From positions 310,001 to 374,000 of the forward strand of contig NZ_LGTQ01000009.1 in the NCBI RefSeq assembly GCF_001306455.1: DNA of 64,000 bases, given 5' to 3'. The stretch comes from Jiulongibacter sediminis (lineage in GTDB: Bacteria > Bacteroidota > Bacteroidia > Cytophagales > Spirosomataceae). Shown here in pieces: positions 59,050 to 64,000 of the stretch. The notes under the pieces are model-generated. The model saw nothing but the letters and a program-made list of their open reading frames with translations. It was not told where the DNA came from and searched no databases. The translations under genes were made by a program, and so were the position numbers. Position 1 is the first letter of the stretch; each line of letters opens with the position of its first letter.

Positions 59050-59745
59050 TTAGACCTCAATATTATGCGTGAGCACAAAGCCCTCGTTTACTGAGCCTGT
59101 AATGCTGGCCATCTCGTTTTCGAATCCATCTCTGAAAATTCCATCTCTTTCATTCGAGGTATCTGCAAGGCCGTTGGAATAAAAATCTGTGGCATTTTGA
59201 AAAACAGCATCACACACCTCTGCCGGGAAAGCGATTTGAGTAATCAGTTCTGAATTTCCGGAATTATTAAAAACCTGAACATGAATATGCACGGCTCTAC
59301 CGGGATACCAGCCGGGGAAAATTGTTTTGAAAACCACCATTCCGTTACTGTCGGTAATCTGTCTACCCCTTAGGAAATTGGCGTTAGAATGACCACCATA
59401 TTGGGAATAATTTCCATCGGAATCACAATGCCAGATATCAACTCTGGCACCTTCCAGGGCTTCGCAGCCGTTAGACGCATCTTTGATGCTTAGCTGTACT
59501 TCAAGTGGTACACCTTGCCTGTCCAGGGTAATATCCTGATAAACGAAATTGGATGGATTTTTTATAGGGAATGGTCCGGCTGTTTCAGAATTGGTGACCT
59601 CGCAGTTTTCGGATGACGAGCCATTAGTGCTACCATTGGCTTCAAGGTTTTCGCCGGCATTTACTGTATTCTTTACGCAGGCCAGTGTAACCGGTGCAGC
59701 GGACAAAAAGCCAATTCCTTTTTTAATGAAGTCTTTTCTTTTCAT
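59050..59745 (-). CDS. Intradiol ring-cleavage dioxygenase-like protein (exported)
   Basis: A 231-aa protein with a signal-like N-terminus (MKRKDFIKKGIGFL) and the catechol-dioxygenase beta-fold. The four iron ligands are visible: Tyr113 (in WHCDSDGNY), Tyr147 (FPGWYPGR), His153 and His155 (AVHIHV). Family members split catechols, but exported ones of this size often have unknown substrates. It is the last gene of a six-gene minus-strand operon, 44 nt from the previous gene. Confidence 0.88.
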   Translation of the reverse strand: MKRKDFIKKGIGFLSAAPVTLACVKNTVNAGENLEANGSTNGSSSENCEVTNSETAGPFPIKNPSNFVYQDITLDRQGVPLEVQLSIKDASNGCEALEGARVDIWHCDSDGNYSQYGGHSNANFLRGRQITDSNGMVVFKTIFPGWYPGRAVHIHVQVFNNSGNSELITQIAFPAEVCDAVFQNATDFYSNGLADTSNERDGIFRDGFENEMASITGSVNEGFVLTHNIEV

Positions 59746-59789
59746 TTTATTTTTTCGTTTCTCTCATAACCTTTTGAGACCTTGGATGA

Positions 59790-60431
59790 TTAGTTGATTT
59801 TAAATTTAAGTCCCCAGTTAATTCTCCATTGATTTGATTTAGAACTGTTTAGCCGGTCATCGGTTTGAATACCTACATCCAGAACAAGTTTTTTTGAAAT
59901 ATCGTATTCAGTACCTAAAGTATATCTTAACTGATCAAAGTCTCCACCGGTTTCGTAAAAGAGGTCGGCAGAAAGATAAGGCTCAATTTTCTTACTGAGT
60001 TTAGTGCTGATTTCTACCTTATTACGTAAATAATTAGCATCCAGGCTTAGTCCGTCAAGGTCATCTTTAAACTGCTGTTGATACCTTAATCTGTACCCAA
60101 TTCTTAGTGGCTCAAAAGCCTTGGTTTTGTATTTAAGTTCGCCGTAAAATCTATGATAAGTATCGGCTGCCAATTTTTCGGCGTCAGGTTCAGCGATGAG
60201 CCTGTAAAAAGCTGCCAGGCTGAAACCCTTTGGTAAATCGTATTTTAATCCGGCCTCTCCCAGGAAGCTTTTGAAAGGAGTACCTATTTCGGAGGTTCTG
60301 GCTTGAGTATTAACTTCAAGTTCCAGGTTTTTTATGATATCGGCTTCAGCAGTTATTTTACTCCAAACGCCTATCTGTGCCGAGCTTTTAAATCCTGACA
60401 AAATCAGAATGACTACAACTATTTTTTTCAT
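59790..60431 (-). CDS. DUF2490-family outer-membrane beta-barrel protein
   Basis: A 213-aa exported protein: signal peptide (1-18), then an array of amphipathic beta strands (EVNTQARTSEIG, YGELKYKTKAFEPLRIGYRLRYQQQF, FYETGGDFDQLRYTLGTEYD, WRINWGLKFKIN) ending in an aromatic residue pattern typical of outer-membrane barrels. DUF2490 has no known function. It lies 12 nt downstream of the DUF4956 gene in the same operon. Confidence 0.85.
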   Translation of the reverse strand: MKKIVVVILILSGFKSSAQIGVWSKITAEADIIKNLELEVNTQARTSEIGTPFKSFLGEAGLKYDLPKGFSLAAFYRLIAEPDAEKLAADTYHRFYGELKYKTKAFEPLRIGYRLRYQQQFKDDLDGLSLDANYLRNKVEISTKLSKKIEPYLSADLFYETGGDFDQLRYTLGTEYDISKKLVLDVGIQTDDRLNSSKSNQWRINWGLKFKIN

Positions 60432-60443
60432 ATCCTGTGTATT

Positions 60444-61049
60444 CTAGGCGTAATAGAAAGCATGAATTCTGGCAGAGTCACGAAGCATATCAATAGATAT
60501 TATATCTACGCGATGCACGCTTATTCCTGTTCTTAATTTGAGGTCTTCCAGAAGATATTCTCTGTTCTCAGGTTTTATATTTTCCAGATTGTCATAATCA
60601 ATCTGATGGAACACTTCCTTTTTCGTGAGAATGTTACCATCTAGTAGGACAGTGGTTACAATAATAATGAGGTTTATCACACCTAGTTCATCCCAGCTGC
60701 CTTTTGAAACGGCTGTCACAAGTCCCATAGCTATAACCAGAAAAAGGTAGGTCATGTCTTTGGTGTTAATTCCTTCAGTTCTAAACCGCAGCATGCTAAA
60801 AACAGCGAAAAGCCCAAATGCCGCTCCCATGGTCATATCTACTCTGTTTAAAAGGTAGGAAATAAGGAAGATGACCATATTAAAGCCGAAAAAGGTTAGA
60901 AATAGCTCGGTCTTTTTATAAAAGCGATAGTAAACCAATCTTACCATCACAAAAGTGGCCAGCATATCAACCAGCAGTCTCAGAAAAAACTTATCTGATA
61001 GTTTTCCCAGAAAGGCATTCTGCCCCATCAGTTCCAATAGTTCTGTCAT
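60444..61049 (-). CDS. DUF4956 membrane protein
   Basis: A 201-aa inner-membrane protein with four transmembrane helices (about residues 25-45, 50-70, 73-90 and 105-130). The block MTMGAAFGLFAVFSMLRFRTEGINTKDMTYLFLVIAMGL is the DUF4956 signature. The cytoplasmic tail (EVFHQIDYDNLENIKPENREYLLEDLKLRTG) has a small alpha-beta look. This family is repeatedly found next to VTC-domain proteins; it overlaps that gene by 4 nt (ATGA) here, so the two are coupled. Confidence 0.92.
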   Translation of the reverse strand: MTELLELMGQNAFLGKLSDKFFLRLLVDMLATFVMVRLVYYRFYKKTELFLTFFGFNMVIFLISYLLNRVDMTMGAAFGLFAVFSMLRFRTEGINTKDMTYLFLVIAMGLVTAVSKGSWDELGVINLIIIVTTVLLDGNILTKKEVFHQIDYDNLENIKPENREYLLEDLKLRTGISVHRVDIISIDMLRDSARIHAFYYA

Positions 61050-61831
61050 TTATTTAAAGTTTTTAAAAAGGGTTTATAAAGTTTGTCAAAAGTAGGTTTC
61101 AACCTGTTATATCGAACATCGTCTTCTGAAGAGATAATACCAAGGCAATATTTGCTTATAGTTCCGGGTCTTTGACCCAGTTTTTTGAGGCGTTTCCGTA
61201 TTTCAGTTTGTTTGAGTTTATCCTGCTTTACTTCCAGTACCACTAAATCTTCAAATCCCCTCTCCTTCCCCTCTCTACTTACCTGCAGATTAAGATCAAT
61301 GGTCACCCGCTCTGAAGAAGTCTTGTTCACAAGTGTTACCCGGTTATAAGAGACTGAAACTGTAGGTTCAAGGATTTCTCTGAAGAAAGGGCTGACCTCC
61401 TGGAGAAAAGCATTTTCATCATGGAGAATTTCACCCTTCGCAGGGAACTTTGTTTCAATTCTTGATTTCATTGTACGGCCATGATTATTCTTAAATTTTA
61501 CTTCAAAAAACGCTAGGCCCGAATCCAGATATTGTCTTTTTCGAACCTTATACCTGTTTAGTCGACCGGAGCGATGCTGATGAAAAAAATGAAGATCTTC
61601 TGTGTCAAAATACTCTGAAACATATTTAAAGATGCGTTTCTCGTTTATTTCCAGAATTCGGTAGTGCTGTTCCAAGCCTTTGAGTAAATCAGGGATCAGT
61701 ATTTTCTCAAACGTATATTTTACCTCACGCCTGTCAAGCAATTCTGCTCGGCTCATTTCGGCCAATCCTAAACTGCTAAATCCCATAAGGCGATCTTCAA
61801 GATCACTTGCTAAATGATTTTGCTGTTTCAT
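61046..61831 (-). CDS. VTC-domain (polyphosphate polymerase-like) protein
   Basis: A 261-aa cytosolic protein with the VTC/TTM tunnel fold: RREVKYTF (about 35-42), YFDTEDLHFFHQHRSGRLNRYKVRKRQY (about 71-98), FFEVKFKN, SYNRVTLVN, TIDLNL and VLEVKQ. The alternating Lys/Arg-Glu pattern lines the triphosphate tunnel in yeast Vtc4, which makes polyphosphate; bacterial copies are of uncertain activity. It overlaps the CotH gene by 29 nt and the DUF4956 gene by 4 nt. Confidence 0.92.
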   Translation of the reverse strand: MKQQNHLASDLEDRLMGFSSLGLAEMSRAELLDRREVKYTFEKILIPDLLKGLEQHYRILEINEKRIFKYVSEYFDTEDLHFFHQHRSGRLNRYKVRKRQYLDSGLAFFEVKFKNNHGRTMKSRIETKFPAKGEILHDENAFLQEVSPFFREILEPTVSVSYNRVTLVNKTSSERVTIDLNLQVSREGKERGFEDLVVLEVKQDKLKQTEIRKRLKKLGQRPGTISKYCLGIISSEDDVRYNRLKPTFDKLYKPFLKTLNK

Positions 61832-63257
61832 ATCTTGATTCTACATGATTTTTTAGGGCTGAAACTCCATTCTCAAAGCTTTCTGACCCCGTAAGATAGG
61901 TATAGCCTACTACTTCAGGTTCAGCCCCTATGACATAATTTTTAATTAGGTTATAGTTTTTGTCAATCATAGAATGTACCAGAGATACTTCAAAAGCTCC
62001 ATTGACAAATGAATTAACATTTGATCTGTATTGCTGATAATAATCTGTGTCTTCAGCCAGATAACTTATCAATGGCCAATTACTGCTCACTCCGGTCAGC
62101 TCAAGATTTATACTTCTATTGTTTAAACTTAAGGCCTCATTATGATCCCATGGAATCCATTTTAGTGATCCCTTATGGTTATATAGATAATAATTATGAG
62201 CCATTCCTCCGTAGGAATCCCAGTTTACAATGGTATTATTTATGGCCAGATAATTCAAAAAATGATCAACATCAAATACCTTTTCCAGCATATTCTTCCA
62301 TGAATCCTTTGAATTTAATCTGTCTGAACTATTTAACCGCTCCACCAGTGTTCTCACATCTGAAAAATCTGCCTGCTCCTTATTATTCTTTTTCTCAAAC
62401 TGAGATTCCAGAAAACTCTGCAGGGTGCTTTCCGGCTTGTATATATTACCATCTTTTTCACCATATTGACTTTCTACCATAGTGTCATCTATCACTTCTA
62501 CAATGGTATAAACTCCACAGTATTTCACACCTTCACCAAAATCTATATATACTTTACAAAATGAAGTTTGTGCCGCGGGTATACCGGCATTTCTAAACAA
62601 GTCAGCTGCCAGTTTTTCTCTCATAAGGGAGGGATCATTGAAAGCCGGTGAAAAAGACAATTCTTTGAAGCCATAAAATCGTTGATCTTTTACTGCCGGA
62701 AACTCATCTTCCATCTTGTCAAAATGAAGTCTGAATGGCAATTTATATACCCCTGAAGACCAGGACTTGCTAAGGCTGGAATTTCCTTTCAATCTAAAAC
62801 CTACATGCTCCCATGTCTTATCATTGAACGAGATAGAGGTTCCTACATAGATGGGATCTCTGCTGAAAATACTAACAGCTCCACCCTGCCCACCTCCGGG
62901 ATTAAATCCTCCGCCGGGCTGACCTGCTGGGGGGGCACCATTTGGCAGCCCACCACCTTGATTTGGCCTACCGCCCAATCCTCCACCTGTGCCAAAAGCA
63001 TTTCCGGAAAGTGAGGTCATATCTTCTTCAATTTTCTCCCAGGAATCCAGTCCAAGGTTTATGGTTATTGTGTTGACCATTGTCTGAGGAAATACAAGAT
63101 CATAATCAGGACTTACACTGTTTCCATGACTCTCCTCAGTCCAGCCAGCGACCACAGAAGAAGGAATTGAAAATTCGTTCTTATTACAGGATTCTAATAG
63201 AATAATTCCTGTCACGCAAATTGTTACCTTTAAATAGCTATTAATGTTGCCCCCCAT
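61803..63257 (-). CDS. CotH kinase-family lipoprotein
   Basis: A 484-aa lipoprotein (lipobox LLESC, Cys about 24). After the anchor comes a glycine/proline-rich linker (about 95-135), then the CotH domain with RLKGNSSLSKSWSSGVYKLPFRLHF, MREKLAADLFRNAGIPAAQTSFCKVYID, YCGVYTIVEVID and HNYYLYNHKGSLKWIPWDHNEAL. These are the blocks of CotH protein kinases that phosphorylate secreted proteins. The cell-surface anchor and the partner genes suggest a surface phosphorylation system. The upstream gene ends 4 nt before its ATG. Confidence 0.92.
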   Translation of the reverse strand: MGGNINSYLKVTICVTGIILLESCNKNEFSIPSSVVAGWTEESHGNSVSPDYDLVFPQTMVNTITINLGLDSWEKIEEDMTSLSGNAFGTGGGLGGRPNQGGGLPNGAPPAGQPGGGFNPGGGQGGAVSIFSRDPIYVGTSISFNDKTWEHVGFRLKGNSSLSKSWSSGVYKLPFRLHFDKMEDEFPAVKDQRFYGFKELSFSPAFNDPSLMREKLAADLFRNAGIPAAQTSFCKVYIDFGEGVKYCGVYTIVEVIDDTMVESQYGEKDGNIYKPESTLQSFLESQFEKKNNKEQADFSDVRTLVERLNSSDRLNSKDSWKNMLEKVFDVDHFLNYLAINNTIVNWDSYGGMAHNYYLYNHKGSLKWIPWDHNEALSLNNRSINLELTGVSSNWPLISYLAEDTDYYQQYRSNVNSFVNGAFEVSLVHSMIDKNYNLIKNYVIGAEPEVVGYTYLTGSESFENGVSALKNHVESRYETAKSFSK

Positions 63258-63261
63258 TGCT

Positions 63262-64000
63262 TTATAATGTTATTGTTCCAAATGAGGTACCTCCGCTGTA
63301 ATTTCCACCTGCAATCAGCCCATCTGAGTTTGCTCCCGTAGAGGTGCCGCCTATACTGAGATTATAACTGTTTCCACTTTTCAAATTAGATCCTGAATAG
63401 ACGATCGATTGGTATTTTTTCATAGGTTGAAAGCAAATTATTTCTTCGCCTTTTGAATCAGTAATATCAAAAACTACTCCCGCTGATTGCGTCTGACTTA
63501 AATTTGCAAGAATAGAGGGTTGAGTGCTGCTGTTATCCGGCTTTTGAGCCATTCTTGAGCTACCTACGGCGACAAGTGTACCTCCGCTGATTTGAAAACT
63601 CCTGTCATAGTCCAGCGAGCCATTCATACTTTCCGTTGGTCCATGTACCAAAACGGTACCTCCGGTCATAACTATTGACCCGTTAGCATCCAGGCCATCA
63701 CCAGATGCATTGACCACCAGGTAACCGCCATTGATATAAAGAAAAACAGAGGTAGCCCCACTATTGCTAAAACCACCGGGCCCTCCAAAGCCTGAACTAC
63801 TTCCATCGGCGGCATTAATGCCGTCATCACTAGAGGTTATCCAGATATTCCCATCGTTGACGGTGATGCTGGCACTTTCCAGGCCTTCATAGGATTTTGA
63901 GACCGTTATGCTGCCACCATCAATCAGCAGGGCTTCGTCGGCATGAACTCCGTCGTCTGCAGTGACAATCTCAAAAGAGCCGTCTTTTATAGTGATGTAC
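63262..64000 (-). CDS. Carbohydrate-binding beta-helix protein (C-terminal part, runs off the right edge)
   Basis: The open frame runs to the window edge and continues beyond it, so the start is outside. The visible 246 residues consist of beta-helix turns with the repeated pattern S-I-T-V-x-D/N-G-x-I-x-I-x-S-x-D-D-G-I-x-A and two 'DDGINAADGSSSGF' / 'GDGLDANGSI' turns, the pattern of DUF4353-type carbohydrate-binding domains often found beside CotH. A Gly-rich region separates the turns. The end has a beta-rich domain without a sorting signal. It is the gene directly before CotH (4-nt gap), so it heads or sits within the operon. Confidence 0.8.
   Translation of the reverse strand, partial: YITIKDGSFEIVTADDGVHADEALLIDGGSITVSKSYEGLESASITVNDGNIWITSSDDGINAADGSSSGFGGPGGFSNSGATSVFLYINGGYLVVNASGDGLDANGSIVMTGGTVLVHGPTESMNGSLDYDRSFQISGGTLVAVGSSRMAQKPDNSSTQPSILANLSQTQSAGVVFDITDSKGEEIICFQPMKKYQSIVYSGSNLKSGNSYNLSIGGTSTGANSDGLIAGGNYSGGTSFGTITL

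Follow-up and report, generated by a model that had tools for sequence, protein, structure and literature searches.

Linkage of a VTC-DUF4956 gene pair with a porin-like DUF2490 barrel in Bacteroidota: a possible system for polyphosphate synthesis and passage across the cell envelope

Genes for proteins of the CotH, VTC and DUF4956 families are known as a trio beside Gram-positive Pel clusters (PMC7112168, available text). As accessory genes of Pel in Streptococcus, Clostridium and Bifidobacterium, they stand in the order CotH-VTC-DUF4956, with the VTC protein annotated as a poly-phosphate polymerase (PPP) and CotH as a secreted protein in the accessible portions of the two papers that describe them (PMC7112168, PMC12345266). 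In the accessible sections of the second paper, Pel rose in S. intermedius strains deleted for the DUF4956 gene and fell in those deleted for the CotH gene, each of the two deletions more than halved aggregation in one medium, and synteny of the trio is reported not to have been found outside Pel in the analyses made there (PMC12345266). Here, we analyze a 64,000-nucleotide stretch of the Jiulongibacter sediminis genome (contig NZ_LGTQ01000009.1, positions 310,001 to 374,000; hereafter the window), in which the same three families occur in the same order, next to a gene for a DUF2490 outer-membrane barrel. The statement in the original prediction for this DNA that the joint biochemistry of these proteins had not been described can be kept only in part, given the description beside Pel (PMC7112168) and the deletion phenotypes (PMC12345266). 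We propose, with a probability of about 0.4, that the conserved core of the cassette couples polyphosphate synthesis to passage across the envelope and has an outer-membrane exit of its own.

Compared with the Pel accessory set, the cassette described here lacks PelG and has an outer-membrane barrel or a periplasmic adaptor, and a DUF4832 protein was not found in the window's run by Pfam. A second natural comparison is the yeast VTC complex (Vtc1/Vtc3/Vtc4), in which, according to the available part of PMC9911596, the enzyme feeds a membrane channel with a basic lining. The tunnel-domain residues match and a constant membrane partner is present in both systems, whereas no SPX or fused membrane domain was found in the 261-amino-acid bacterial protein, in which VTC is the sole Pfam domain, and the partner is DUF4956, for which a relation to Vtc1 was not detected. 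The porins KdgM, NanC and VhGalP share with DUF2490 the predicted barrel fold and inward arginines but not a sequence family. In NELoc-2 of Clostridium perfringens, CotH and two VTC-domain genes are clustered; unlike the present cassette, that locus holds a chitin-synthase-like gene and a resolvase, and the proteins next to VTC are annotated as tubulin/FtsZ (PMC2879425, portion available). In Bacteroides thetaiotaomicron, the adjacent DUF4956-DUF2490 pair BT3498-99 is lower under iron limitation (-7.6; PMC10434189, portion available). Among the literature matches listed, whose coverage leaves out preprints and most subscription papers and which were available in part, nothing describes this combination in connection with Bacteroidota, with the export of polyphosphate or with membrane fusion proteins; DUF4956 is named in three of the papers covered. 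The cassette is thus partly known; what is new is its independence from Pel, the regular presence of a DUF2490 barrel that has a porin-like fold and inward arginines, and the adaptor found as an alternative.

Six minus-strand genes are packed between positions 59050 and 64000 of the window, with gaps between successive genes of 4, -29, -4, 12 and 44 nt, in exact agreement with the three gaps (4, 12 and 44 nt) and two overlaps (29 and 4 nt) given originally, and all six products exceed the curated Pfam cut-off with their best matches. The VTC gene (61046-61831) overlaps the CotH gene (61803-63257) by 29 nt and the DUF4956 gene (60444-61049) by 4 nt; the DUF2490 gene (59790-60431) comes next. 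A scan of the operon for promoters and terminators was uninformative (23 sigma-70 promoter-like sites against 15.1 expected, 7 terminator-like sites against 5.3).

The conservation of this arrangement was computed in several sets of loci. In a Bacteroidota sample of 296 genomes per search, with DUF4956 and VTC searched under the same settings, DUF4956 is present in 74 genomes and VTC in 48; all 48 VTC-bearing genomes encode DUF4956, and the distance between the two genes is at most 1 kb for 51 of the 55 VTC hits and at most 3 kb for 54 (the hypergeometric value for the co-occurrence, 1e-36, ignores shared ancestry). DUF4956 occurs in 53 of the 121 genomes of the window's family. The "named loci", the best 80 of 533 DUF4956 relatives, 77 of them with a called DUF4956 gene, are biased to close homologues. 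There, VTC immediately precedes DUF4956 at 69 of 77 loci, with overlapping genes at 53 of the 69, and DUF2490 immediately follows it at 61 of 77; the notion that the barrel is not a usual member is not supported. The phylum loci, 38 fetched from 81 DUF4956 places and 37 with a called gene, were hand-picked across families, and counts from them (e.g. 14/37 with an adaptor) are not population estimates. Loci in which the caller of open reading frames missed DUF4956 (L061, L066, L097, L124, L148, L150, L152, L156 and L190) are excluded from the synteny counts, with L150 and L152 described from record annotation. CotH lies within four genes upstream at 36 of the 69 named VTC-DUF4956 loci, and CotH, VTC and DUF4956 form a single run at 35 of the 77 named loci, at 12 of the 37 from the phylum and at 11 of the 35 from the family. 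In the only other genome of the genus with the cassette (L049), Cthe_2159, VTC, DUF4956 and DUF2490 are all present.

Outside Bacteroidota, the evidence comes from 17 plasmid records (9 from Aminobacter; 8 opened, 2 of these unannotated), an archaeal contig (L098) and published papers. DUF4956 is present in all 17 plasmid records (Deinococcota, Actinomycetota and Alphaproteobacteria), and the 16 records with a VTC match all belong to this set; Deinococcus taeanensis carries CotH-VTC-DUF4956 in the same order. VTC and DUF4956 are thus a near-obligate pair, and CotH is an optional member, in the run at a third to half of the loci. That the genes are chance neighbours without a joint function might be argued from the 33 of 69 named loci where CotH is not within four genes upstream, from the rarity of Cthe_2159 and from the uniqueness of the dioxygenase at the end of the run. 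Such an explanation is nevertheless scarcely credible, with linkage that spans families and phyla and with DUF2490, VTC and two small exported genes occurring, in the named loci, at no greater distance from DUF4956 than four genes. Chance is already contradicted for VTC-DUF4956-DUF2490 and may still account for the dioxygenase; the run goes beyond chance, and the joint unit claimed in the original prediction stands, with DUF4956 as the constant neighbour of VTC.

Several observations on membership deserve a separate mention. Two loci (L035 and L036) have CotH-DUF4956-DUF2490 with gaps of 4 and 8 nt and no VTC between, which suggests that the VTC subunit can be lost. In other Bacteroidota cassettes (L069-L148; e.g. 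L091, L117 and L122), although not in the window, two small exported proteins recur between CotH and VTC: one of 135-247 amino acids with YD/RHS-like repeats (46 loci of the mixed set) and a GEGG lipoprotein of about 135 amino acids with a carboxypeptidase-regulatory-like motif (36 loci). Two records titled Alphaproteobacteria and Bifidobacterium breve (L122 and L133) hold the Bacteroidota-type cassette with DUF2490 and are probably mis-binned or mislabelled contigs.

The VTC protein (61046-61831, minus strand; 261 amino acids; Pfam VTC, PF09359, 6.4e-28, 98.3 bits against a cut-off of 23) is predicted to be a cytosolic polyphosphate polymerase. A profile of 47 bacterial and archaeal VTC sequences aligns with yeast Vtc4 (3g3q) over nearly the full length (7.7e-16) and retrieves only Vtc4, Vtc2 and Vtc3. 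The 47 sequences share nine invariant positions, K95, R97, E110, K112, R164, D179, E200, K202 and K227, while K38, R175 and S226 are conserved in at least 90%. These positions align with the Vtc4 tunnel, and counterparts of Vtc4 K200, R264, R266, K281, R361, R373, E426, S457 and K458 are present (yeast numbering follows the 3g3q chain, its offset set by R264, R266 and E426), among which we take K200, K281, R361, R373, S457 and K458, like the further residue K455, to be tunnel residues. Joint substitution of R264, R266 and E426 impairs the yeast enzyme (PMC9911596, available part). The assignment as a VTC tunnel protein holds up in this alignment, with K455 as the exception, and from the homology we infer that the protein may synthesize polyphosphate from ATP.

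DUF4956 (60444-61049, minus strand; 201 amino acids; Pfam 9.5e-48) is a predicted inner-membrane protein and a putative translocation partner of VTC. In its AlphaFold2 model (pLDDT 89.0), a short helix at the N-terminus precedes five long ones, and the C-terminal domain is small and of alpha/beta type, which corrects the earlier description of a four-helix membrane protein. The positions of R88 and R90, where the third long helix ends, and of R173 hold a basic residue in 0.99-1.00 of 146 DUF4956 sequences; the topology is a prediction, and a channel role is putative. Plant ALMT channels were considered as relatives and set aside, the best VIA Z of 7.3 possibly reflecting a mere common arrangement. 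The Pfam MgtC family gives weak matches in four of six DUF4956 proteins tested, among divergent members (best 1.2e-6, in L176, below the cut-off), in agreement with the description of the streptococcal protein as MgtC-plus-ACT in the available text of PMC12345266; the window's DUF4956 has no MgtC match at E values up to 10, and an MgtC entry is absent among the structural matches listed.

These properties bear on a different reading of the pair, in which the VTC-family protein is some other triphosphate-tunnel enzyme, or a binding or sensor subunit that gates an MgtC-like ion or magnesium channel formed by DUF4956. Tunnel enzymes catalyse varied reactions (PMC4641920, as far as its available text goes), Vtc4 K455 is unmatched, and DUF4956 also occurs without VTC. 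We nonetheless consider this quite improbable in view of a profile that retrieves only Vtc4, Vtc2 and Vtc3 and of the retained counterparts of R264, R266 and E426.

The DUF2490 protein (59790-60431, minus strand; 213 amino acids; Pfam 1.2e-21) is a predicted anion-type outer-membrane pore. Its AlphaFold2 model (pLDDT 94.8) is a barrel with 11 strands by DSSP, and the top VIA matches are the acidic-oligosaccharide porins VhGalP (Z 16.7), KdgM (16.5) and NanC (15.8); the model aligns with 8xua at Z 16.7 (rmsd 2.8, 172 residues aligned) and with 4pr7 at Z 16.5. At the sequence level, a match to the KdgM/NanC family was not found, Pfam giving DUF2490 and a sub-threshold OMP_b-brl alone. When the sides of the strands are assigned by parity, with hydropathy across 50 homologues deciding which side is which, K/R predominates in 14 inward columns and D/E in 4, compared with 1 and 2 outward, and the conserved R45, R94, R114, R136 and R169 (0.88-0.98) all face inward. 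A barrel lined with arginines would suit an anionic substrate, with polyphosphate and acidic sugars as candidates.

A divergent architecture is found in part of the phylum sample. At 14 of 19 divergent loci (L175-L194), and at none of the other 18 (L157-L174), the DUF4956 run contains a gene for a periplasmic adaptor, and the adaptor profiles match none of the 401 genes outside the runs at the 37 phylum loci. Among known families, the profile of 8 sequences hits RND/AcrA adaptors (2.2e-11) and that of 4 sequences hits EmrA (2.4e-12), and the profiles match each other with an hhalign probability of 97. DUF2490 is present at 11 of the 37 phylum loci, and the adaptor at none of these 11; among the named loci, the profiles mark 2 of 77 runs (L074 and L119) and 1 of 648 genes outside runs. 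Periplasmic adaptors of this type normally partner an inner-membrane pump. Given that a scan of eight unlabelled genes, which lie within some of the divergent runs or next to them, found only one transporter, a cation-efflux protein in L184, DUF4956 is a natural, if unproven, candidate for the partner. A TolC-like protein beside the adaptor in L185, L189 and L193 was also considered and is not claimed (Pfam 0.0019, no TolC in the PDB search).

Taken together, the linkage of VTC with DUF4956, the homology of VTC, the basic residues of DUF4956, the inward arginines of DUF2490 and the periplasmic adaptor can be accommodated in a single scheme, with which the polyphosphate idea of the original prediction is consistent. 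The VTC protein would polymerise ATP phosphate into polyphosphate in the cytosol, like yeast Vtc4; DUF4956, with basic residues at its predicted cytoplasmic face, would take the chain across the inner membrane, replacing the yeast VTC channel; and the arginine-lined barrel would pass the anionic product over the outer membrane, with the export-pump-type adaptor participating in its stead in the divergent lineage. At the surface, the CotH kinase and the Cthe_2159 beta-helix protein, where present, would bind or use the product. Such a system would place beside the yeast VTC machine a bacterial equivalent that also has an exit through the outer membrane. DUF4956 and DUF2490, for which Pfam has names but no function, would then have a role that can be tested.

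A number of observations weigh against this scheme. The porin relatives KdgM, NanC and Porin_O_P are uptake channels, so that transport might run in either direction. In the VIA comparison, autotransporter barrels reach Z 15.6, within about one Z unit of the porins, a small margin; ordered by E-value, Foldseek puts VDAC and TOM barrels first, with TM-scores of about 0.2, and NanC at rank 9 with a TM-score of 0.56. The mature DUF2490 protein of the window is nearly neutral (29 K+R versus 28 D+E; the family mean is +9.6). DUF4956 has no significant structural match in the PDB (best Foldseek E 0.11), Vtc4 K455 has no counterpart in the profile alignment, VTC is missing from 26 of the 74 DUF4956 genomes, and CotH was not found in the 20 kb fetched of L049. 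With respect to the adaptor, the L074 and L119 runs hold an adaptor-type gene alongside DUF2490, and in L074 genes for 1091 and 479 amino acids follow it, an ordinary efflux-pump layout judging by gene sizes only; L185, L189 and L193 have DUF4956 and the adaptor with no VTC or recognized TolC, and in the adaptor locus L184 the cation-efflux transporter gene lies 83 nt upstream. Finally, deletion of the VTC gene of S. intermedius had no reported effect, and a section heading states that Pel can be produced without the four extra genes, in the available text of that paper (PMC12345266).

Phosphate-related genes near DUF4956 in other lineages come from few loci and speak for the scheme in no more than a suggestive way. 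A Porin_O_P gene adjoins DUF4956 in Pseudoalteromonas (2.4e-47) and in L176 (2.5e-7). On all three alphaproteobacterial plasmids examined, DUF4956-VTC is followed by a phytase-like gene, on one of them with a PiT inorganic phosphate transporter in between; in L183, a phytase-like gene overlaps DUF4956. A metallophosphatase gene with a sub-threshold purple-acid-phosphatase domain is present in L172, and one Deinococcus locus has an HAD acid phosphatase and a phosphonate transporter close by. The PiT, phytase-like and phosphatase neighbours, together with the uptake function of KdgM-type and Porin_O_P barrels and the weak sub-threshold MgtC-like match of DUF4956, would also fit phosphate acquisition and storage without export: DUF2490 or Porin_O_P would import phosphate or oligophosphate, surface enzymes would liberate it, and VTC-DUF4956 would store it as polyphosphate. 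We hold this to be somewhat unlikely, for it leaves unexplained both the export-pump-type adaptor at 14 of 19 divergent loci and the frequent linkage of a kinase-type surface protein, and PPK1 is already encoded in the J. sediminis genome.

The relationship to Pel was assessed with the marker PelG, which is over the cut-off in none of 62 DUF4956-bearing genomes, with two weak sub-threshold hits (other Pel genes were not searched); among the 62 are the window's own genome, where PelG was not found, and the 12 genomes of the phylum sample in which the trio forms a single run. A Pel context is rejected on this marker, and the Bacteroidota, plasmid and Deinococcus loci contradict a restriction of the trio to Pel. 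With CotH-VTC-DUF4956 also occurring apart from Pel, a broader function has to be assumed for the set. A further reading is control of the surface glycan or matrix, with VTC-DUF4956-CotH modulating an exopolysaccharide or a surface protein by phosphorylation, in the way that the Pel accessory genes might, and polyphosphate acting as a mere internal signal or cofactor. The altered Pel levels and aggregation of the S. intermedius DUF4956 and CotH deletion strains, in the accessible sections of PMC12345266, and the type IX secretion system (T9SS) sorting tails on three of four scanned linked CotH proteins speak for such control. We think it unlikely, with PelG over the cut-off in 0 of 62 genomes and no recurrent glycosyltransferase noticed among neighbour clusters, which were not scanned by family.

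CotH itself (61803-63257, minus strand; 484 amino acids; Pfam CotH, PF08757, 1e-61) is a kinase-family lipoprotein that matches the Bacillus CotH structure 5jd9 at 2.4e-14. Among 69 unique CotH proteins from the fetched loci, K172 (0.86), E254 (0.94), D347 (0.96), N355 (0.81) and D371 (1.00), to which we presumptively assign individual kinase roles, are conserved. Since linked CotH proteins from other loci carry T9SS sorting tails (three of four, with a lamin-tail domain in three of four, one just sub-threshold), a surface location is expected, and the predicted surface lipoprotein kinase keeps its description in both respects, surface type and kinase residues. The CotH label on the 341-amino-acid gene of L171 and L172 is doubtful (profile 2.3e-4 in L172, no Pfam match). 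Genes of the arylsulfotransferase type whose products have T9SS tails lie within or next to the run in L165 and L179; like CotH, the products would be extracytoplasmic group-transfer enzymes.

Any kinase at the cell surface depends on a donor of phosphate, a part that exported polyphosphate would suit. In an extension of the export scheme that we consider speculative and improbable, polyphosphate would replace ATP as the donor of CotH in phosphorylating surface proteins or glycans, the cassette being a complete synthesis and export machine whose exit is DUF2490, a Porin_O_P-like barrel or the adaptor system. If correct, it would explain how a surface kinase works where ATP is absent; the phosphate source of extracytoplasmic CotH kinases becomes a directly testable question.

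The outer members of the run are less constant. The Cthe_2159-type beta-helix lipoprotein is represented in the window by its C-terminal part (63262-64000, minus strand; Pfam Cthe_2159 4.1e-13 on the cut piece); the gene is open at the window edge and runs 965 nt further, to window-equivalent 64965 (L002:6262-7965). The complete protein has 567 amino acids and a lipobox-like LLMAC at its N-terminus, and it matches the Clostridium thermocellum beta-helix 4peu at 4.6e-34. The Cthe_2159 family, which is present at 4 of 35 family loci, binds cellulose and polygalacturonic acid (PMC6712302, available text). The lipoprotein is predicted to be a surface binder of an anionic polymer, and acidic sugars are a candidate substrate of DUF2490, all the more since the family binds polygalacturonate.

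At the other end, the exported intradiol dioxygenase-like protein (59050-59745, minus strand; 231 amino acids; Pfam Dioxygenase_C 8.5e-14, 51.8 bits against 27.3) matches 5vg2 at 3.8e-20, with an aligned Tyr, Tyr, His and His that we take to be the iron ligands of that structure. No dioxygenase is labelled within 5-6 genes of DUF4956 in the other examined family and named loci, L049 included. The gene adjoins the cassette in the window's genome alone, so it is rejected as a cassette member and is probably a passenger outside the conserved cassette; its suggested use as a marker of a Bacteroidota variant was not borne out.

Upstream of the operon (L002:8182-14394, window-equivalent 65182-71394) lie genes for a zinc-type alcohol dehydrogenase, a PepSY membrane protein, an OMP_b-brl_3 barrel of TonB type with a Gly/Pro-rich N-terminus, and a divergent LytS/LytTR pair. 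Neighbour clustering hinted at LytS/LytTR regulators as linked partners, which were rejected in the absence of near-versus-far enrichment in the named loci. In L049, comparable barrel and PepSY-like genes are found upstream of the cassette, together with an extra Gly/Pro-rich protein of 144 amino acids.

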